From an uncultured Pseudomonadota bacterium (lineage in GTDB: Bacteria; Pseudomonadota; Gammaproteobacteria; Steroidobacterales; Steroidobacteraceae), in assembly GCA_903908825.1 (NCBI GenBank), contig CAIVTJ010000076.1, forward strand, positions 1-36,072: a DNA stretch of 36,072 bases. The letters are read 5' to 3'. Below, in pieces: positions 27,676 to 36,072 of this stretch. The notes beneath the pieces were generated by a model. It was not told where the DNA came from. It searched no databases and saw nothing but the letters and a program-made list of their open reading frames with translations. The position numbers and the translations under genes are program-made. How positions within the stretch are numbered: the stretch's first letter is position 1; each line of letters opens with the position of its first letter.

Positions 27676-28788
27676 ATGAAGACACGTGCTGCGCTGGCCG
27701 TCGGTGCCGGCAAACCGCTGGAGATTCACGAGCTCGATCTGGCCGGTCCGGCCGCGGGTGAAGTGCTGGTCGAGATCATGGCCACCGGTGTGTGCCACAC
27801 CGATTACTACACCTTGTCAGGCAAAGACTCCGAGGGTGTGTTCCCGTCCGTGCTGGGCCATGAAGGCGCCGGTATCGTCCGTGAGATCGGTGCCGGCGTA
27901 ACCAGTGTCAAGGTCGGTGACCACGTCATTCCGCTCTATACGCCCGAGTGCCGCGGCTGCAAGACCTGTCTGAGCCGCAAATCCAACCTGTGCACCGCTA
28001 TCCGTGCAACACAGGGCAAGGGACTGATGCCGGACGGCAGCAGCCGTTTCAAACTCGGTAACGAAACCGTTTATCACTACATGGGTTGCTCGACCTTCAG
28101 TAACTTCACGGTGCTGCCTGAGATCGCGGTGGCCAAGATCCGTGAAGACGCCCCCTTCGACAAGGTGTGCTACATCGGCTGTGGTGTTACCACCGGCATC
28201 GGTGCGGTCATTTACACCGCCAAGGTCGAGCCCGGCGCCAACGTGGCCGTGTTCGGTCTCGGTGGCATCGGCCTCAATGTCATTCAGGGCGCCCGCATGG
28301 CCGGTGCCGACAAGATCATCGGTGTCGATATCAACCCTGCCAAGCGCGCCATGGCCGAACAGTTCGGCATGACCCATTTCATCAATCCCACCGAGGTCGG
28401 CACCGATAAAGTCGTGCAGGCGGTGGTCGATGCCACGGCCGGCGGCGCCGATTACACCTTCGATTGCACCGGCAACGTCCACGTCATGCGCCAAGCTCTG
28501 GAGAGCTGCCATCGCGGCTGGGGCCAGTCGATCATCATCGGTGTGGCCGAGTCGGGCCAGGAAATCGCCACGCGGCCTTTCCAGTTGGTGACCGGCCGGG
28601 TGTGGAAGGGCAGTGCCTTCGGTGGTGCCCGCGGCCGCAGCGATGTGCCCAAGATTGTCGACTGGTATATGGAAGGCAAGATCCGCATCGATGAACTCAT
28701 CACTCACCAGATGCCCCTGGACAAGATCAACGATGCCTTCCACCTGATGCATGAAGGCGAGTCCATCCGCTCGGTGGTGGTTTACTAA
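27676..28788 (+). CDS. adhC: S-(hydroxymethyl)glutathione dehydrogenase / class III alcohol dehydrogenase
   Basis: Oxidises the spontaneous adduct of formaldehyde and glutathione to S-formylglutathione with NAD; it can also reduce S-nitrosoglutathione. At 370 residues it is the usual class III length. Catalytic zinc ligands Cys40 (GVCHTDYY), His62 (GHEGAG) and the Cys of [12 protein letters not shown] are present, as is the structural zinc set Cys92, 95, 98 and 106. The NAD site reads [26 protein letters not shown], and QATQ-like [16 protein letters not shown] is typical of the family. It closes a run of envelope genes, but the functional partner is probably the methylamine cluster downstream, which produces C1 units. 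No S-formylglutathione hydrolase gene (frmB/fghA) follows. Confidence 0.95.
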
Positions 28789-28795
28789 GTCGGTT

Positions 28796-28822
28796 GCGCC
28801 CGGTCCACCGTTGGCCGGGCGC
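28796..28822 (+). terminator. GC-rich hairpin downstream of adhC
   Basis: GCGCCCGG at 28796-28803 pairs with CCGGGCGC at 28815-28822. The stem continues inward as CCA/TGG around a CCGT loop, with one bulged T at 28804. It begins 8 bases after the adhC stop. No T-run follows, so it is not a textbook intrinsic terminator; it may block read-through with Rho or stabilise the 3' end. Confidence 0.5.
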
Positions 28823-28842
28823 ACTGCTGCGGGGCGAGTTGC

Positions 28843-28867
28843 ACCGCCTTGAGGCTCACACGGCGGT
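28843..28867. repeat. Dyad upstream of the marR promoter
   Basis: ACCGCC at 28843-28848 and GGCGGT at 28862-28867 are inverted copies separated by 13 bases. The centre is about 87 bases before the predicted start of transcription, a distance seen for enhancer-binding protein sites at sigma-54 promoters. Six-base arms occur by chance in GC-rich DNA, so this is a weak candidate. Confidence 0.2.
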
Positions 28868-28914: not shown

Positions 28915-28931
28915 TTGGCACAGCGTTTGCT
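28915..28931 (+). promoter_or_regulatory. Putative sigma-54 promoter (or overlapping sigma-70 promoter) of marR
   Basis: TTGGCAC at 28915-28921, five bases, then TTGCT at 28927-28931 match the sigma-54 consensus (YTGGCACR-N4-TTGCW). GG (28917-28918) and GC (28929-28930) are exactly 12 bases apart, as required. Transcription would start near 28942. The same DNA can be read as sigma-70: -35 TTGGCA (five of six matches), 16 bases, and -10 TGTAAA at 28937-28942 (four of six). The two readings cannot be separated by eye; no clear NtrC-type upstream site was recognised. Confidence 0.5.
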
Positions 28932-28947
28932 TTGTTTGTAAAAGCAA
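28927..28947. promoter_or_regulatory. Putative MarR operator dyad over the marR promoter
   Basis: TTGCTTT at 28927-28933 and AAAGCAA at 28941-28947 form a perfect 7-bp-arm inverted repeat with a 7-base spacer. It covers the -12 element and start site of the sigma-54 reading and the -10 of the sigma-70 reading. MarR-family dimers usually bind dyads of about 16-22 bases, and many repress their own promoter from such a position. Binding by the adjacent MarR product is inferred. Confidence 0.45.
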
Positions 28948-28965
28948 CTCACGGCTGGAGGCCAT

Positions 28966-29466
28966 ATGGATTACGTAATGGGTGCGGTCAATGCCGGTGC
29001 TATGGCCGATCTGGAAAACCCGGGCGGCGCACTGTCCGATGACCAAATCGATCTTGGCGTCTTACCCGATCTGCTGGGCTACAACTTACGTTCAGCGCAG
29101 CTGGCGCTGCAACGCAGCCTCTCCAAGGCTATCCCCGGTGGCGATCCGGGTTCGGGCATCTTCGGCTTGCTGGTGCTGTGCGCCGGTAATCCTGGTATCT
29201 CGCAGATTCAGGTTGCGCGTCACCTGACCATCGACAAGGCCAGCGTTGTGGCTTTGGTGGACCGTGGTGAAGAGAGCGGTTGGTTGCAACGCCGTCGGGC
29301 ACCGGACGATCGCCGTCGTCATGGTCTGTTCATCACCCCGGAGGGTAACGCCCACTTGGCACAGATGAAGCTGCGCATGCGCAACTGTGAACACAGCTTT
29401 GATGCCTTGTTTGCTCCGGAAGAGCGTCAGCAGCTGCTGACCCTGCTGCAGCGCATCCGGCCCTGA
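28966..29466 (+). CDS. MarR family transcriptional regulator
   Basis: A 166-residue protein with the MarR winged-helix fold: an N-terminal dimerisation helix (LPDLLGYNLRSAQLALQRSLSKAI), the helix-turn-helix at about residues 77-97 (ISQIQVARHLTIDKASVVALVDRGEESGWL), and the wing (RRRAPDDRRRHGLFITPEG). GGAGG at 28957-28961 precedes the ATG at 28966 by 4 bases; an ATG at 28978 is an alternative. The gene stands alone between adhC and the convergent N-methylglutamate pathway cluster and has its own promoter and a dyad. The ligand is unknown; methylamine, formaldehyde or a pathway intermediate would fit the neighbourhood, but this is inference. Confidence 0.88.
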   Translation: MDYVMGAVNAGAMADLENPGGALSDDQIDLGVLPDLLGYNLRSAQLALQRSLSKAIPGGDPGSGIFGLLVLCAGNPGISQIQVARHLTIDKASVVALVDRGEESGWLQRRRAPDDRRRHGLFITPEGNAHLAQMKLRMRNCEHSFDALFAPEERQQLLTLLQRIRP

Positions 29467-29485: not shown

Positions 29486-29514
29486 CCGGCTGCTGATGTC
29501 AGGTCAGCGGCCGG
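29486..29514. terminator. Hairpin between convergent marR and mgsC
   Basis: CCGGCTGCTGA at 29486-29496 pairs with TCAGCGGCCGG at 29504-29514 over 11 positions with one T-G wobble, enclosing a 7-base loop. It starts 19 bases after the marR stop and includes the mgsC stop codon on the other strand, so it could act on both convergent transcripts. There is no T-run on either side. Confidence 0.45.
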
Positions 29515-30856
29515 GTATCCAGTCGGTGCCCGCCAGCGGTACCCCGGCCATGGCCGCCGCCTCGACAGTCAAGGCCACCAAGTCCTCACGCTCCAGGTGA
29601 TGCACATCCTGTTTGCCGCAAGCGCGTGCCAAGGTGGTCAGTTCCATGGTCAAGGTCTTCAGATAGTTGCGCACTCGGCGCGCACCGGTCTCAACTTCCA
29701 AGCGTTGTTCAAGTAGCGCATCTTGGGTCGTCACGCCGACCGGGCAGCGACCCGTGTGGCAGTGATGGCAGTAGCCGGGACGCGTGCCCAGTGCCGCGTA
29801 GTCGGCTTGCGCATCGATATGCTGACCTGCCCGCATATAGCTGCTGCTGTTGCAGCCCAGCGCAAACAACATGCCTTGGCCGATGGATACTGCATCGGCG
29901 CCCATGGCCAGAGCTTTGGCGATATCCGCGCCAGAGCGTATGCCGCCCGAGACGATCAGTTGCACCTGGCCCGTCATGTTGAGGTCTTCCAGCGCATCGA
30001 CGGCCTGTCTGACAGCCGCGAGTGTGGGAATACCCACATGTTCGATGAACACGGTCTGCGTGGCGGCCGTGCCACCTTGCATGCCATCCACCACGACCAC
30101 ATCCGCACCCGAATGCACGGCCAGTTTGACGTCATGGAAGACGCGTGTTGCGCCAACCTTCACATAGATGGGTTTCTGCCAATCGGTGATCTCGCGCAGT
30201 TCGCGGATCTTGATCGCCAGATCATCGGGCCCCGTCCAGTCCGGATGCCGGGAAGCCGAGCGTTGATCGACACCAGCGGGCAAGGTGCGCATCTTAGCCA
30301 CACGCGGATTGACCTTCTGCCCGAGCAGCATGCCGCCGCCACCGGGCTTGGCACCCTGACCGATGACGATCTCGATGGCATCGGCGCGGCGCACATCATC
30401 GGGGTTGAAGCCATAGCGTGAAGGCAGGCACTGGTAGACCAGATGTTTGGAGGCATTACGCTCTTCGTCCGTCATGCCGCCATCACCGGTGGTGGTCGAC
30501 GTACCGGTTTCGGTGGCCGCACGACCCAGAGCTTCTTTCACGTTGGCTGACAGTGCGCCGAAGCTCATGCCGGCGACCGTGATGGGAATGTCGAGCTCCA
30601 AAGGCTTGCTGGCGTAACGCGTGCCCAGCACCGTACGGGTGGTGCACTTTTCGCGGTATCCCTCTAATGGGTAGCGTGACAGCGAAGCACCCAGCAGTAA
30701 CAGATCATCAAAGTGCGGCAGCTTGCGCTTTGCGCCCAAGCCCCGGATCTCATACAGGCCTGTGGCGGCTGCACGTTGCACATAGTCGATGACGTTGCGA
30801 TCAAAAGTGGCTGATTCTTCTTGCGACAAAGGGCCGCGATATTCGTTGGCTGACAA
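29504..30856 (-). CDS. mgsC: N-methylglutamate synthase subunit C (FMN-binding glutamate synthase family)
   Basis: This 450-residue protein is homologous to the FMN/iron-sulfur domain of glutamate synthase (GltB/GlxD type). Barrel segments PITVAGMSFGALSANVKEAL, KPGGGGMLLGQKV, VVDGMQGGTAAT and IVSGGIRSGADIAKALAMGADAV bind FMN. A Cys cluster, Cys363, 366 and 371 in YCHHCHTGRCPVG, fits a 3Fe-4S site. With MgsA and MgsB it converts glutamate and methylamine (delivered as gamma-glutamylmethylamide) to N-methylglutamate. The chosen start is TTG 30856, 7 bases after AGGAG (30868-30864) at the end of mgsB. The frame stays open further upstream, but only inside mgsB. A plain GlxD-like glutamate synthase is the alternative; gmaS and mgdCD upstream favour mgsC. 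Confidence 0.87.
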   Translation of the reverse strand: MSANEYRGPLSQEESATFDRNVIDYVQRAAATGLYEIRGLGAKRKLPHFDDLLLLGASLSRYPLEGYREKCTTRTVLGTRYASKPLELDIPITVAGMSFGALSANVKEALGRAATETGTSTTTGDGGMTDEERNASKHLVYQCLPSRYGFNPDDVRRADAIEIVIGQGAKPGGGGMLLGQKVNPRVAKMRTLPAGVDQRSASRHPDWTGPDDLAIKIRELREITDWQKPIYVKVGATRVFHDVKLAVHSGADVVVVDGMQGGTAATQTVFIEHVGIPTLAAVRQAVDALEDLNMTGQVQLIVSGGIRSGADIAKALAMGADAVSIGQGMLFALGCNSSSYMRAGQHIDAQADYAALGTRPGYCHHCHTGRCPVGVTTQDALLEQRLEVETGARRVRNYLKTLTMELTTLARACGKQDVHHLEREDLVALTVEAAAMAGVPLAGTDWIPGR

Positions 30857-30857
30857 C

Positions 30858-31553
30858 TCAGTACTCCTGGTTGGCGTCGGCGTTCCAGTGGTAGAGCCCG
30901 CGCGCCGAAGCGACTTTGCGAAACTCACTGGAAGGATGAGTGAACCCGGCCACGGTCAACAGCTGCGTCACTGCGGCATGGTCTTCGGGAAGCATGGGTT
31001 CAAAGCGTGCGTCGGCACCGAGTGATTTGACCTCGCCGCGCACATAGATGATGGCTTCATACAGCGAGTCACCCAGCGCGTCGCCGGCATCGCCGCAGAT
31101 CACCAGCCGGCCGGCCTGCGCCATGAAAGCCGAAAAGCTGCCGACACTGCCGCCGACAACGATGTCGCCACCCTTGAGCGAAATGCCGCAACGCAATGAG
31201 GCATCACCCTCGATGATCAGGCAGCCACCGTGCGCCGAAGCACCGGCGCTGGTCGAGGCAAAACCTTTGATGCGGACCAAGCCGGACATCATGTTTTCGC
31301 CGGCACCGGTGCTGGCGTTGCCGTGTACGGTGATCTGCGCGTGCTGATTCATGCCGCCGACGTAATAGCCAGCATGTCCCATGACATCGATCTGCACAGC
31401 GGTGTCGACGCCGCAGGCGATAGAGTGCGCACCGTCCGGATTAAACACGCGTACTGGCGTGCCGGCCGCCTGCTTCACCTCATGATGCAGATAGTGGTTG
31501 AGTTCGCGCAGGCTGTGTTGAGCGAGGTCAAAGTCCCGGTAGGGCGTGCTCAT
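30858..31553 (-). CDS. mgsB: N-methylglutamate synthase subunit B (GXGXG domain protein)
   Basis: A 231-residue protein made of the GXGXG beta-helix found at the C-terminus of large-subunit glutamate synthase. Repeats include GHAGYYVGGMNQHAQITVHG, NASTGAGENMMSGLVRIKG, ASTSAGASAHGGCLIIEGDA and GDIVVGGSVGSFSAFMAQAG. In N-methylglutamate synthase this is a separate structural subunit between the amidotransferase (MgsA) and the FMN subunit (MgsC). The ATG at 31553 overlaps the mgsA stop (ATGA), which is why it is chosen over a TTG at 31565. Confidence 0.86.
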   Translation of the reverse strand: MSTPYRDFDLAQHSLRELNHYLHHEVKQAAGTPVRVFNPDGAHSIACGVDTAVQIDVMGHAGYYVGGMNQHAQITVHGNASTGAGENMMSGLVRIKGFASTSAGASAHGGCLIIEGDASLRCGISLKGGDIVVGGSVGSFSAFMAQAGRLVICGDAGDALGDSLYEAIIYVRGEVKSLGADARFEPMLPEDHAAVTQLLTVAGFTHPSSEFRKVASARGLYHWNADANQEY

Positions 31554-32446
31554 GCGCGACTCCAACTGTAGATGGTGCGCGGTTGCGGTTCGAACAAGCG
31601 CGCATGCTTGACGCCGGGCAGGTGCGACAGCGACCGGAACTCTGAGGCGATAGCCACATAGTCATCGGTCTCGGCCACGATCGCCGGTTTGCAGGCGAAT
31701 GGGTCGCGCACCAATGCCAAGCCGTCACCGGTGCCGATCAGGAAGGTGAAAAAACCATCCAGTTCTTCAAAGCCTTGTTCTATGGCGGCGTTGATGTCAT
31801 CGCCTTCACGCATGCGCCATTCGAGAAAGCGGCAGGCCGCTTCAGTGTCATTGTCGGTCTCGAAGTGGATGCCCAGCGGCTCCAGCTTGCGCCTGACCTT
31901 ATGCGGGTTGGACAGCGAGCCGTTGTGCACAACACAGAAGTCACGCCCGGCGGTGAACGGATGCGCATGCGCAGGTGTGACCGCAGACTCTGTGGCCATG
32001 CGCGTATGGCCGACAGCATGGCTGCCGGTCAGCGCGCCAAACTGGTAGCGTTCGGCGATCTGCGCTGGCGTACCGATGTCCTTGTATAAGTCGATGCTGC
32101 TGCCGACTGACAGCACCACCAACTGGGGATGCGCGGCCAGCAAGAAGTTCTTAATAACTTGCGCATCGATTGAAGTGATCAGCACAGCATGGGCGCCGTT
32201 GGGAATCAGCTGGTGTTCGCCCTGATGCTGTTGTTGCAGGCTGTCTGCGACGCCTTGCCAATCGGGCTGGCCCGAAGGATAGAACAAACTGATCTTGGAG
32301 CCGCTCGCTAAGGCCGTGCTGAACACAGCAAGTCCTGCGGAGTCGGGCCCGCGATCGGTCATACCGACCAACATGGGTACCAGTAATTCGCCCAGACGTT
32401 CATCCCAGGCGGGTTTTTTCATCAACAGTCCGACGATGCCGCACAT
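31550..32446 (-). CDS. mgsA: N-methylglutamate synthase subunit A (class II glutamine amidotransferase)
   Basis: This 298-residue Ntn-type amidotransferase starts MCGIVGLL, so Cys2 becomes the N-terminal nucleophile after Met removal. Other family parts are GMTDRGPDSAGLAVF, GHTRMATESAVTPAHAHPF and FCVVHNGSLSN with its oxyanion Asn/Gly, then DNDTEAACRFLEWRM. In GltB-type enzymes this domain hydrolyses glutamine; in the N-methylglutamate pathway it is thought to act on gamma-glutamylmethylamide and pass on the methylamine. The ATG at 32446 is one base after the gmaS stop and is fixed by the need for Cys at position 2. Confidence 0.87.
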   Translation of the reverse strand: MCGIVGLLMKKPAWDERLGELLVPMLVGMTDRGPDSAGLAVFSTALASGSKISLFYPSGQPDWQGVADSLQQQHQGEHQLIPNGAHAVLITSIDAQVIKNFLLAAHPQLVVLSVGSSIDLYKDIGTPAQIAERYQFGALTGSHAVGHTRMATESAVTPAHAHPFTAGRDFCVVHNGSLSNPHKVRRKLEPLGIHFETDNDTEAACRFLEWRMREGDDINAAIEQGFEELDGFFTFLIGTGDGLALVRDPFACKPAIVAETDDYVAIASEFRSLSHLPGVKHARLFEPQPRTIYSWSRA

Positions 32447-32447
32447 A

Positions 32448-33782
32448 TCAGAAGAACTCGAGGTAGCGGGTGGTTTCCCAATCGGACACATGACGGGCGT
32501 ATTCGGTCCACTCCATGCGCTTGAGGGCGATGAACTCAGCCGCCAGCTCGCCACCCAGACCGTCGCGCACGACTTCGTCTTGCTCCAGCGCAATGATGGC
32601 TTCGAGCAGGTTTTGAGGTAGGACGCCGATGCCCTGTCGGGCGATCTCATCGGGACTGAGTTCATAGAGGTTCTGATTGTTCGGCGCACCCGGATGCAGA
32701 CGGCGCTGCACGCCATCCATACCGGCAGCGATGATCGCGGCGGTGACCAGATAGGGATTGCAGCCGGCATCGGGCAAACGCATTTCCAAGCGGCCGCCGG
32801 GGATGCGCACGCAGCTGGTGCGGTTGTTGTCACCGTAGGCGATGTATGCCGGTGCCCACGTCGCACCGGACAGCGACCGGCCCACCACCAGACGCTTATA
32901 TGAATTGACGGTGGGCGCGCAGATCGCAGTCAAGGCGCGCGCATGGGCCAGGATGCCGCCCACAAAGTGATAGCCCATCTCGGACAGCGCCAGACCGTTA
33001 GGGTCGGACTTGTCCATGAACAGGTTGGGCGTGTTGGCATTGCCCATAGAGATATGAAAGTGGGCGCCGCTGCCGGTGCGATTGGAGAACGGCTTGGGCA
33101 TGAAGGTGGCGACCATGCCGTGCTTGTGGGCGACTTCACTGGCGGCCATCTTGACCAGCACGAAGTTGTCGGCCGAGGTCATGGCATCGGCATAGGTGAA
33201 GTTCACCTCGAACTGACCATTGGCATCCTCATGGTCTATTTGATAAACGTCCACGCCCACGGCGCGCAGGCCATCTACCATCTCATCGAGTACGTGTGAG
33301 GTACGCGACAGACCCTTGTAGTCATAGCAGGGTTTATCCAGGGTGTCGGTCGGATCGTGAGGGCCCAGACGCCCTGTGGCATCGCGTGACAACAGCATGA
33401 ACTCGGGTTCAATGCCGGTGTACAGCGTCAGTCCTTGAGCGGCTAATTTATCGAGTTGCCGTTGCAAAGCCACGCGCGAGCAATAAGGCCAAGGCTTGCC
33501 CTTGACCGTGCCATTACACACCAGTCGCGCATAGCCCGGCATCCACGGGATAACTTTCAGCGTGGCCAAGTCGCCAACGGCCATGTAGTCGGGACCTTGC
33601 GGGCCCATGCCGAAGCCCCACAGGGCAAAGCCGGCAAAACCAGCGCCATCGGTCAGCACCATGTCCAAGTGCTCGACCGGTACGGCTTTTGCTTTGGCTG
33701 ATCCATGGATGTCGACGAACTGCGCCAGTACATAACGGATCTTGTGGGTCCGCAGCAATTCAAGTGCTTGTTCTTTGTTCAT
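32448..33782 (-). CDS. gmaS: Gamma-glutamylmethylamide synthetase (glutamine synthetase family)
   Basis: This 444-residue member of the glutamine synthetase superfamily ligates methylamine to glutamate with ATP, the first step of the N-methylglutamate pathway. Metal-binding Glu residues lie in [10 protein letters not shown] (about 121-130), the central motif is [12 protein letters not shown] (234-245), and the Arg-rich ATP/glutamate site reads [14 protein letters not shown] then [14 protein letters not shown]. The N-terminus ([20 protein letters not shown]) is of the GlnT/GmaS type rather than GlnA. It starts 10 bases after mgdD and is followed at once by mgsA. A type III glutamine synthetase is the alternative on sequence alone; context decides for GmaS. 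Confidence 0.87.
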
Positions 33783-33792
33783 GGCAAACCGC

Positions 33793-34353
33793 CTAGTGAT
33801 CGGTGACGGAGAGGGAGGAATTAGCAGGGCTCTGCGCGCCCATGGCCGACAGGCATTCGCGCAAATACTGCCCTAGTGTCGGATCGCACCACAGACGCAA
33901 ACCCTGCGAGGCGCCGTGTGATTCGCGGATGAAGGTGACGCTGATGCCAGCCATCAACGTCATCACGGTCTCATCGGCCCGGGCCCGGGGTGACTCAAAG
34001 TCATAGGCGCAGATCTCGCGCAGAGCCGGGTAGAGCTGCGGGCCTTGCAGCAACAAGCTCGTGTCGCAGCGCTGCGCGAGACAATGACGGCCGTTGTTTG
34101 CAGCCAAGGCAGCGCACACGGCATCGATCAGGTCGGTGCCGTCTTGTTGCTCCAACAGAAACTCGTTAAAGCCCAGACGCAGGCAGCGACCCTGATAGGG
34201 CGCAGTCAAGGACACCACGCTATTGGGATTGGCCGGTACTGCGGCGCCAAGCTGCTGAAGCAAAGCCGCGGCCTCTGTGCCTTTGATGCCGCAGCGCTTC
34301 ACGCCGGTGACTTCGCTGAACCCAAACTGATGCCGGGCCACCGGTGTGATCAT
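33793..34353 (-). CDS. mgdD: N-methylglutamate dehydrogenase subunit D (sarcosine oxidase gamma-subunit family)
   Basis: A 186-residue protein resembling SoxG, the gamma subunit of heterotetrameric sarcosine oxidase: [16 protein letters not shown] near the start, [17 protein letters not shown], and a GcvT-like tail with [30 protein letters not shown]. In the dehydrogenase it packs against the SoxA-like subunit. Its ATG overlaps the mgdC stop (ATGA). In isolation it could be a sarcosine oxidase subunit; the gmaS and mgs genes immediately downstream favour N-methylglutamate dehydrogenase. Confidence 0.8.
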
Positions 34354-36072
34354 GACGCCTTGTCCTTCTGACGCGAGTTGGCCGGGTCATAGAACGGTGT
34401 GCTGACCACAACGGCGGCGTGTTCCGCGCCATCTTCACCACGGATATGCAGCCTTGTGCCGGCTGCGGCCAATGCCGGTTTGACCATGGCCAGTCCGATG
34501 GTCTTACCCAGTGTGGCGGAGCTGCCGATACTGGTGATGCGGCCGGCGATATCACCGTCAGCGATGATCAGGTGACATTCACTGACCGGCGCTTGCGCCT
34601 GGGTCAGCTCGAACCCCACCAACAGTTGTCGTGGTCCGCGCGCTTTGAGTATTTGCAGACTGCGTTGACCCACAAAGAAGGGCTTGTCTGATTTGACCGA
34701 CCAGCCCATGGACGCCTCGTACGGGTTGCTGAGTCCGTCTGTGTCCTGACTGACAATGATATGGCCCTTTTCAAGGCGCAGTTGCCGCTGGGCCTCAACA
34801 CCAAAAGGCTGCAAGCCGTGTTCGCCAGCTGCCCGGTGCAAGGCGTCCCACACCGTTAGCGCCTGATCTGTGGGAATGTGTATTTCATAGCCCAGTTCAC
34901 CGACGAAGCCCACGCGTGCCACGCGGGCCGGCACACCGGCAATGTGGCACTGCCTGGCAGCCAGATACGGGAACTGTTCCGGTGTCAGGGGCAGGTCGGT
35001 GCAGGCGGACAGAATGCTGCGGCATTGCGGACCGGCCAGGTTGAGAGCGGCTAAGTGACCGGTCAGGTTGTGCAGAATGCAATCGAGCTGCCATTCGGCC
35101 ACACGCCGCTGCATTTCGCGATAGACGGCCGCCGAGGCACTGGTGGTGGTGCTGACATAAAAATGCGCACTGTCATAGCGTGCGACCACGCCGTCATCGA
35201 TGATCGTGCCGGCCTCATCGACCATCACCGCATAGCGGGTGCTGCCGGGTTTCATGTCTGCAAAGCGCCCGGTGTACAGCCGCTCGAGCAGGGTTGCGGC
35301 ATCCGGTCCGTGCAGGTCGATCTTGCCCAGCGTCGACACGTCGATGATGCCGGCCTTGCTGCGCACAGCCTGCACTTCAGCGGCAACACACTGCGCGGCC
35401 GACCGTCCCGCAACCGCGTAATAAGCCGGTCTGCGCCATTGGCCAGCCGGCATCCACACCACACCAGCGGCTTCGTGCCAGGCATCAAAGGCTGTGCGCC
35501 GCAGTGGCGTAAAGCCGGTACCTGCCAGCGAGCCGATGCTCAGCGGTTGATAAGGCGGGCGCGCTGTGGTCAGCCCGACATGATGCAGCGGTTGATTGAC
35601 CAAGCTGCCGAGCAGACGCGCGGCATTGAGGTTGGACAGCTTGCCCTGCGACGGACCCATGCCCACCGTGCTGTAGCGCTTGAGCAGTTCAATGCTGTCA
35701 AAGCCTTCCTGAGCGGCGTGGACTAAATCGTCCAACGTCAGATCTTCATCGAGGTCGACGAACTCTTTGCCCTTGGGGTGCGGGTACAGCGGATAATTAT
35801 GGCTACGCGCCGGGCCACTGTGGGCTGGCACTTGCGGCAGGGAGGCTGCAGCTTGGCCACTGGCATACGCTGCAGCGGCTGCGCCGGCACAACGACCGTC
35901 GGCGGCTTTACCGGTGATGCTGTACTGGCCGTTAGCGCGTCCTGCCACAAACACGCCGTGCGGCAGTGTGGCGGGCACATGTTGTTGCAGGCCGTCATCG
36001 TGACGTAGCGTCGCGCCACCTTGAAGTGCCAGTTGCAAGGCCGGCATCCAACCTGCCGACAGCAGTAAGGCA
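34350..36072 (-). CDS. mgdC: N-methylglutamate dehydrogenase subunit C (sarcosine oxidase alpha-subunit family), 5' end outside the window
   Basis: The 573 visible residues run off the right edge: the frame is open through 36072, and the ATG at 36047 is internal. The visible part opens with the end of the FAD/NAD-binding domain (LLSAGWMPALQLALQGG, then GVFVAGRANGQYSITGKAADG). A linker typical of SoxA follows (LDEDLTLDDLVHAAQEGFDS, LKRYSTVGMGPSQGK). The C-terminal GcvT-like tetrahydrofolate-binding domain has GIIDVSTLGKIDLHGPDA, VGFVGELGYEIHIP and FGVEAQRQLRLEKGH. It accepts the methyl group from N-methylglutamate as methylene-tetrahydrofolate or formaldehyde. The usual partners mgdA and mgdB (SoxB- and SoxD-like) would lie beyond the edge. 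Confidence 0.85.
   Translation of the reverse strand, partial: ALLLSAGWMPALQLALQGGATLRHDDGLQQHVPATLPHGVFVAGRANGQYSITGKAADGRCAGAAAAAYASGQAAASLPQVPAHSGPARSHNYPLYPHPKGKEFVDLDEDLTLDDLVHAAQEGFDSIELLKRYSTVGMGPSQGKLSNLNAARLLGSLVNQPLHHVGLTTARPPYQPLSIGSLAGTGFTPLRRTAFDAWHEAAGVVWMPAGQWRRPAYYAVAGRSAAQCVAAEVQAVRSKAGIIDVSTLGKIDLHGPDAATLLERLYTGRFADMKPGSTRYAVMVDEAGTIIDDGVVARYDSAHFYVSTTTSASAAVYREMQRRVAEWQLDCILHNLTGHLAALNLAGPQCRSILSACTDLPLTPEQFPYLAARQCHIAGVPARVARVGFVGELGYEIHIPTDQALTVWDALHRAAGEHGLQPFGVEAQRQLRLEKGHIIVSQDTDGLSNPYEASMGWSVKSDKPFFVGQRSLQILKARGPRQLLVGFELTQAQAPVSECHLIIADGDIAGRITSIGSSATLGKTIGLAMVKPALAAAGTRLHIRGEDGAEHAAVVVSTPFYDPANSRQKDKAS

Follow-up and report, generated by a model that had tools for sequence, protein, structure and literature searches.

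The best reading of the marR promoter studied here is an NtrC/sigma-54-driven relay with NAC-like logic, in which a MarR-type regulator would be attached to formaldehyde/formate oxidation. We hold this reading, which is drawn from sequence comparisons, with reasonable confidence. The promoter lies in the window, the whole 36,072-nt stretch of DNA that was analysed, within the 177-nt gap between frmA and marR (28966..29466, + strand). If the reading holds, the cell probably makes this MarR regulator in nitrogen shortage.

A conserved sigma-54 element precedes marR

The -24/-12 element TTGGCACAGCGTTTGCT (28915..28931, + strand) matches the sigma-54 consensus YTGGCAYRNNNNTTGCW at 13/13 positions and is the single 13/13 match on both strands of the 36 kb window. 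Rechecking of the coordinates confirmed the arrangement first described in a sequence-only reading of this promoter, i.e., TTGGCAC (28915-28921) and TTGC (28927-28930), with GG (28917-18) and GC (28929-30) separated by N10. Transcription presumably starts at 28942 (+ strand), 12 nt past the -12 GC, as predicted from sigma-54 promoter geometry. The marR frame begins at 28966 and is preceded by GGAGG at 28957-28961.

The pattern TGGCAYNNNNNTTGCW gave 84 matches in nine genomes of the genus, compared to 17 with a reversed control, and 12 matches in the source genome, compared to 2 with this control. From the control rate, ~6e-5 matches are expected per strand of the gap. The element before marR exceeds chance.

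The motif TGGCAY-N5-TTGCT was kept before the marR genes of all six members of the m1 clade (the source genome G000, and G001, G002, G003, G006, and G007). The G002 and G003 genomes are near-identical, so that these six genomes represent five independent lineages. The start codon of the m1 genes lies 11–41 nt past the 16-base element. Mean column identity in the aligned frmA-marR gaps was 52% overall, while the element was kept in 6/6. The source genome also carries rpoN (455 bits; cut-off, 277). Because the element is conserved, we count the sigma-54 promoter as shown: judged from these comparisons, 28915-28931 is very probably the sigma-54 promoter of marR, as had been proposed earlier.

The same bases can be read as a sigma-70 promoter (TTGGCA-N16-TGTAAA, 5/6 and 4/6 matches), an alternative that the sequence-only reading had also mentioned. 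The element might then be a chance match, and transcription of marR would come from this sigma-70 promoter or read through from frmA. In G001, G005, and G006, m2 paralogs lie directly after frmA without a sigma-54 promoter. However, a TATAAT-like second hexamer at spacers of 15–18 reached at most 3/6 positions in each of the five relatives. The sigma-70 reading was rejected because this '-10' was conserved in none of them, and the conservation of the -24/-12 element in 6/6 genomes makes a chance match scarcely credible.

NtrC as the likely activator

The source genome contains ntrC (691 bits; cut-off, 558.6). As a positive control, we used the glnK promoters of eight genus genomes, which consist of a sigma-54 element and NtrC-type sites at ~-77 and ~-109. 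The glnK locus of G008 was excluded, as it had no usable site. The -12 motif of the glnK promoters in the genus is GTGC (seven) or ATGC (one), not TTGC, and their NtrC sites are 32 bp apart (L146-L150, L152-L154).

An NtrC matrix was trained solely on the 16 glnK sites and used to scan the region from -130 to -45 before 70 sigma-54 sites. These sites were derived from the 84 sigma-54 matches by omitting 11 of G002 that were unfetched and merging the G002/G003 marR site, which left 72, and by removing two with <130 nt upstream. The ortholog promoters of G006, G007, G002/G003, and G001 scored 15.5, 15.0, 13.1, and 13.0, respectively, and ranked 1st, 3rd, 9th, and 10th of the 70 when labels were disregarded. 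These four of the five distinct ortholog promoters scored above all 53 'other' promoters at four pseudocounts. For all five marR promoters, the Mann-Whitney p value was between 6e-6 and 3e-4 across pseudocounts, with 12 promoters labelled as nitrogen-related, in part after the scores had been seen, and with labels that are partly our own reading of protein starts (adenosine deaminase, nitrate-type transporter, isochorismatase family, flagellar, and pilin). The L058 promoter, with a score of 12.2 near those of marR, was moved to the nitrogen group on the basis of its downstream sequence, yet after its score was known; before this move, comparing marR with 54 others gave p = 8e-6.

In the window, two NtrC-like sites were found, each matching 9/12 positions of the NtrC consensus. 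Site 1, GCACTGCTGCGGGGC (28821..28835, + strand), starts 95 nt before TGGCA, and site 2, GCACCGCCTTGAGGC (28841..28855, + strand), follows 20 bp after site 1. The glnK-matrix score of this promoter (3.6, at site 1) was reached by 6 of the 53 'other' promoters (8 at the largest pseudocount), and its best single site was ordinary, as 0.11 of shuffles reached the same score. The pair score of 18 was reached in 0.1% of dinucleotide shuffles, with the pair spacing picked after looking, and was otherwise attained solely by promoters labelled nitrogen-related or marR. The same pair test gave 0/1000 shuffles for G007, 0.4% for G002/G003, 1.7% for G006, and 22% for G001, an ordinary value; G001 has one good NtrC site, at -55. 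In the gappy alignment of the gaps, 25 columns are invariant. The -24/-12 element accounts for 10 of them, box 1 together with the base before it for 6, box 2 and the start codon for 3 each, and other positions for the remaining 3.

Some of the NtrC-like boxes coincide in part with hairpins, and the -115 box in G002/G003 is the clearest example. In the window, a GC-rich 9-bp hairpin without a T-run lies after frmA (28795..28823, + strand) and shares 3 bases with site 1. Part of the NtrC signal could therefore stem from terminators.

Support for NtrC is thus strong in the relatives and weak in the source genome. This is also how the nitrogen-status activator suggested by the sequence-only reading fared: ntrC is present, and NtrC-type sites lie upstream of the ortholog promoters but are weaker in the source genome. 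A real sigma-54 promoter could also be served by a different activator, for example an enhancer-binding protein that answers to formate or C1 status. The source genome has eleven matches to PF00158, some of them weak, so that another activator could replace NtrC. The weakness of the NtrC-like sites in the window would agree with this, as would formate dehydrogenases listed among predicted sigma-54 genes of other bacteria in the accessible text of PMC12316311. However, the glnK-trained matrix groups the ortholog promoters with the nitrogen ones, and the scanned neighbours of marR included no recognisable activator gene. We consider a different activator rather improbable and NtrC the likely activator of marR.

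The dyad over the -12 box

The letters of the dyad TTGCTTT-N7-AAAGCAA (28927..28947; arms at 28927-28933 and 28941-28947, 7/7 complementary) and its overlap with the -12 box are exactly as first described. The further claim that the dyad is the operator of the regulator was not borne out. Perfect dyads whose arms span 7 bp or more and whose spacer does not exceed 10 appeared in 4.5% of dinucleotide shuffles of the 51-nt stretch 28915-28965 and in 17% of those of the whole gap; the dyad is barely above chance. No copy of it was present in the marR promoters of the five m1 relatives, although their MarR proteins are 40–72% identical and the DNA-binding domain is kept. The equivalent stretch of 4/5 relatives carries different perfect inverted repeats of 6–7 bp, two of these four being identical, as chance would give. 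An operator conserved together with its regulator, the mark of MarR autoregulation, was not found for this dyad. The dyad at 28927-28947 is probably a product of chance or species-specific, and it is very unlikely to be a MarR operator.

Autorepression is common in the MarR family. This, together with the exact dyad and its position over the -12 box, would speak for a two-signal switch of sigma-54 activation and MarR repression at 28927-28947. Since the dyad is not supported as an operator, such a self-blocking switch is not supported either. With the dyad missing in all five relatives, a shuffle frequency of 0.045–0.17, and unlike, chance-like repeats in 4/5 relatives, we regard it as highly improbable. 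The conservation in related genomes that the sequence-only reading had named as a check for both features was found for the -24/-12 element (6/6) and not for the dyad (0/5).

A common operator was also sought by eye upstream of 21 family homologs, and the blocks found there were missing from the window promoter. One of them, a TTTGCANTACGAACNATAACGAA..TATACT-type block common to the g10 promoters (L184-L188, L190, L192-L195), is probably a sigma-70 promoter with an operator. Upstream of three distant homologs (L196, L199, and L200), a GTATGT/ACATAC-type dyad followed by a TTGCGAA/TCGCAA-type repeat appears alike by eye.

The neighbourhood of marR

The gene upstream of marR, frmA (27676..28788, + strand), encodes S-(hydroxymethyl)glutathione dehydrogenase, as indicated by TIGR02818 (609 bits; cut-off, 544) and synteny. 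It precedes marR in all seven genus genomes that have the gene; in G007 and G005, the contig ends within frmA. On the same strand after marR, G002 and G003 have fdsG-fdsB-fdsA-fdhD, G006 and G007 have fdhD with the fds genes farther on, and G001 has fdhD and a ModE/molybdopterin-type gene. In the source genome, marR is on its own, and a separate contig (C186, L141) carries fdsGBA-fdhD, so the link between marR and formate dehydrogenase rests on the relatives.

This arrangement raises the question of whether the promoter serves a marR-formate dehydrogenase operon, of which the marR in the window would be a remnant after the downstream genes had left. Such an explanation is compatible with NtrC. 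The presence of fdsGBA-fdhD or fdhD after marR on the same strand in 5/5 other clade members favours it, and no sigma-54 score of at least 11/13 was found near fdsGBA-fdhD in the fetched 11.5 kb of C186. However, both the -24/-12 element and the marR frame are intact in the source genome without the downstream genes, and gaps of ~560 nt between marR and fdhD in G006 and 115 nt between marR and fdsG in G003 leave co-transcription only putative. We consider the operon explanation possible but the less likely one, next to a promoter that serves marR itself.

An N-methylglutamate (methylamine)-like cluster (29504..36047, - strand) is convergent with marR. Its profile matches include type III glutamine synthetase and glutamate-synthase-like, amidotransferase, and sarcosine-oxidase-like proteins, and we take it to be an N-methylglutamate pathway. 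The sequence-only reading had linked the promoter to this methylamine pathway; the cluster was found beside marR solely in the source genome. It gave no hit in the 5–16 kb fetched around marR in each of G001, G002, G003, G005, G006, and G007, and the tie between marR and the cluster was rejected on this ground. Type III glutamine synthetase was found above the cut-off in 3/9 genus genomes (G000, G001, and G005) and in none of G002, G003, and G006, all of which keep the promoter; G007 gave two part-matches below the cut-off. Going by gene order, the conserved theme near marR appears to be formaldehyde/formate oxidation, and the methylamine adjacency appears to be local. The cluster sits where the relatives hold formate dehydrogenase genes and reaches the contig end (29504-36072), so that its promoter may lie beyond the window.

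The MarR protein and its clades

The marR gene encodes a 166-aa protein of the m1 clade, with PF12802 (42 bits) and PF01047 (35.6 bits) both above cut-off, consistent with a winged-helix MarR domain. In a predicted structure (mean pLDDT, 82), the order of helices and strands fits the MarR winged helix. The protein matched solely MarR families and no LysR-type family. The nearest solved sequence is CouR (2.5e-15), and the best NCBIfam model is Saro_0803, with 81 bits, far under the curated 200. This protein resembles the CouR/Saro_0803 group in these matches. Its gene neighbourhood differs, being one of C1 metabolism and not of aromatics, the class of compounds to which CouR responds.

In the alignment, the column of Cys72 holds cysteine in 6/6 m1 proteins compared to 0/21 others (3 m2 proteins and 18 family homologs), and that of Cys141 in 5/6 compared to 0/21. 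In the predicted structure, Cys72 lies within helix 64-74 and Cys141 within helix 125-146. Speculatively, the invariant Cys72 could make the m1 MarR a thiol or formaldehyde sensor.

With a threshold of 1e-25, 7/9 genus genomes, counting the source genome, had a MarR match. The six m1 members form one side of a branch with 98/98 support. The m2 clade (99/99) comprises the G005 gene and the second copies of G001 and G006, all directly behind frmA, and the sigma-54 pattern TGGCAYNNNNNTTGCW was not found before any m2 gene. In the wider family, 52/217 genomes had a match at 1e-22. We inspected 24 wider-family loci, 23 of them outside the genus, with each scan beginning 250 nt ahead of the in-frame upstream stop. 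None of the 23 other-genus loci had a sigma-54 score >11/13 in the scanned stretch (11 was reached at L197), and none had a frmA or formate-dehydrogenase neighbour within ~1.5 kb. In the genomes examined, the sigma-54 promoter thus appears to be a property of the m1 clade of one genus. A search for related loci among the genome contigs gave one weak locus, and no Rfam family reached its gathering score in the window or in six further loci.

Known systems and the proposed mechanism

NAC of Escherichia coli and Klebsiella is a LysR-type regulator. It is a DNA-binding regulator whose gene is activated by NtrC and which relays the nitrogen signal to sigma-70 genes, according to the accessible text of PMC4066584 and PMC6299236. 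The predicted NtrC-switched regulator gene in the window resembles this case. In contrast to NAC, which acts widely, its product is of MarR type and is encoded beside frmA (and formate dehydrogenase genes in the relatives).

The remark in the sequence-only reading that MarR genes are rarely reported under sigma-54 control fits the literature searched, with one predicted case: in Xylella fastidiosa, the MarR-family gene XF1354 was placed behind a predicted RpoN site, TGGTACGGTATTTGCT, in 2010, and its authors noted in the accessible text that a regulator inside the sigma-54 regulon could account for indirect RpoN control (PMC3224663). As in the window, a sigma-54 site, in Xylella a predicted one, lies before a MarR-family gene.

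TtmR of Methylobacterium and HxlR of Bacillus subtilis are formaldehyde-responsive MarR-type regulators, and HxlR senses formaldehyde by a Cys-Lys cross-link, using its N-terminal helix (accessible text of PMC12180729 and PMC8879981). The window protein is likewise of MarR type and linked to formaldehyde, here by its frmA neighbour. Its invariant cysteine, Cys72, belongs to helix 64-74, in contrast to the N-terminal helix used by HxlR, and the accessible text on TtmR and HxlR mentions no sigma-54 or nitrogen input, unlike that predicted for the window marR. The literature searched yielded no account of a MarR gene driven by NtrC next to frmA or formate dehydrogenase genes. It contains a predicted sigma-54 site before a MarR gene, NtrC-activated regulators, and formaldehyde-linked MarR proteins, and no paper was found in it that joins them.

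In the mechanism we propose, phosphorylated NtrC would bind the tandem sites ~75–95 bp upstream when nitrogen is short and would remodel the sigma-54 polymerase at 28915-28931, with transcription beginning near 28942. The MarR-type product would then serve as a relay, comparable to NAC in enterics, and would probably tune formaldehyde/formate oxidation when nitrogen comes from C1-releasing compounds, e.g., methylamines or purines. Candidate C1 genes are frmA upstream and, in the relatives, the formate dehydrogenase genes downstream. We infer the targets, ligand, and physiological benefit of the MarR protein, and the chance that the relay acts on formaldehyde/formate genes is, in our estimate, slightly below even.

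A more elaborate version, which we put forward as doubtful, is a coincidence detector. Here, the frmA-linked MarR, one of two related copies in the genus, would have acquired a thiol (Cys72, with Cys141) along with its NtrC/sigma-54 promoter. Its synthesis would be confined to nitrogen shortage, and formaldehyde or a related electrophile would switch it. If true, C1 detoxification and formate oxidation would be tuned when methylated amines or purines are the nitrogen source. The proposed relay would be a MarR counterpart of NAC, leading from a nitrogen-starvation promoter through a small local regulator to formaldehyde/formate handling. Among the genomes examined, the promoter is limited to one MarR clade of one genus, so that the capture of this regulator by NtrC would be a bounded case.

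Other NtrC/sigma-54 promoters in the genus

In the source genome, a gene with an adenosine/adenine-deaminase-like start, by our own reading, lies behind an NtrC/sigma-54 promoter (G000:C41, L081). In its G001 counterpart (L047), the sigma-54 element is retained, and a good NtrC site is missing.

A conserved ~95-nt transcript-like block was observed right after an NtrC/sigma-54 promoter in 8/9 genus genomes (L087 3855-3949, - strand, after G000:C250:7958-7973; also L117, L055, L106, L069, L116, L067, and L058). At six of these loci, it had no Rfam match at the gathering score. In three loci, gltB lies 839–1534 nt downstream. A stem in the block encloses a C-rich loop (with as many as nine C) and is followed by a GC-rich terminator with a T-run, and at 11 of its 25 consensus pairs at least one sequence is changed on both sides with pairing kept. 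From its sequence, the block looks like a nitrogen-starvation small RNA.
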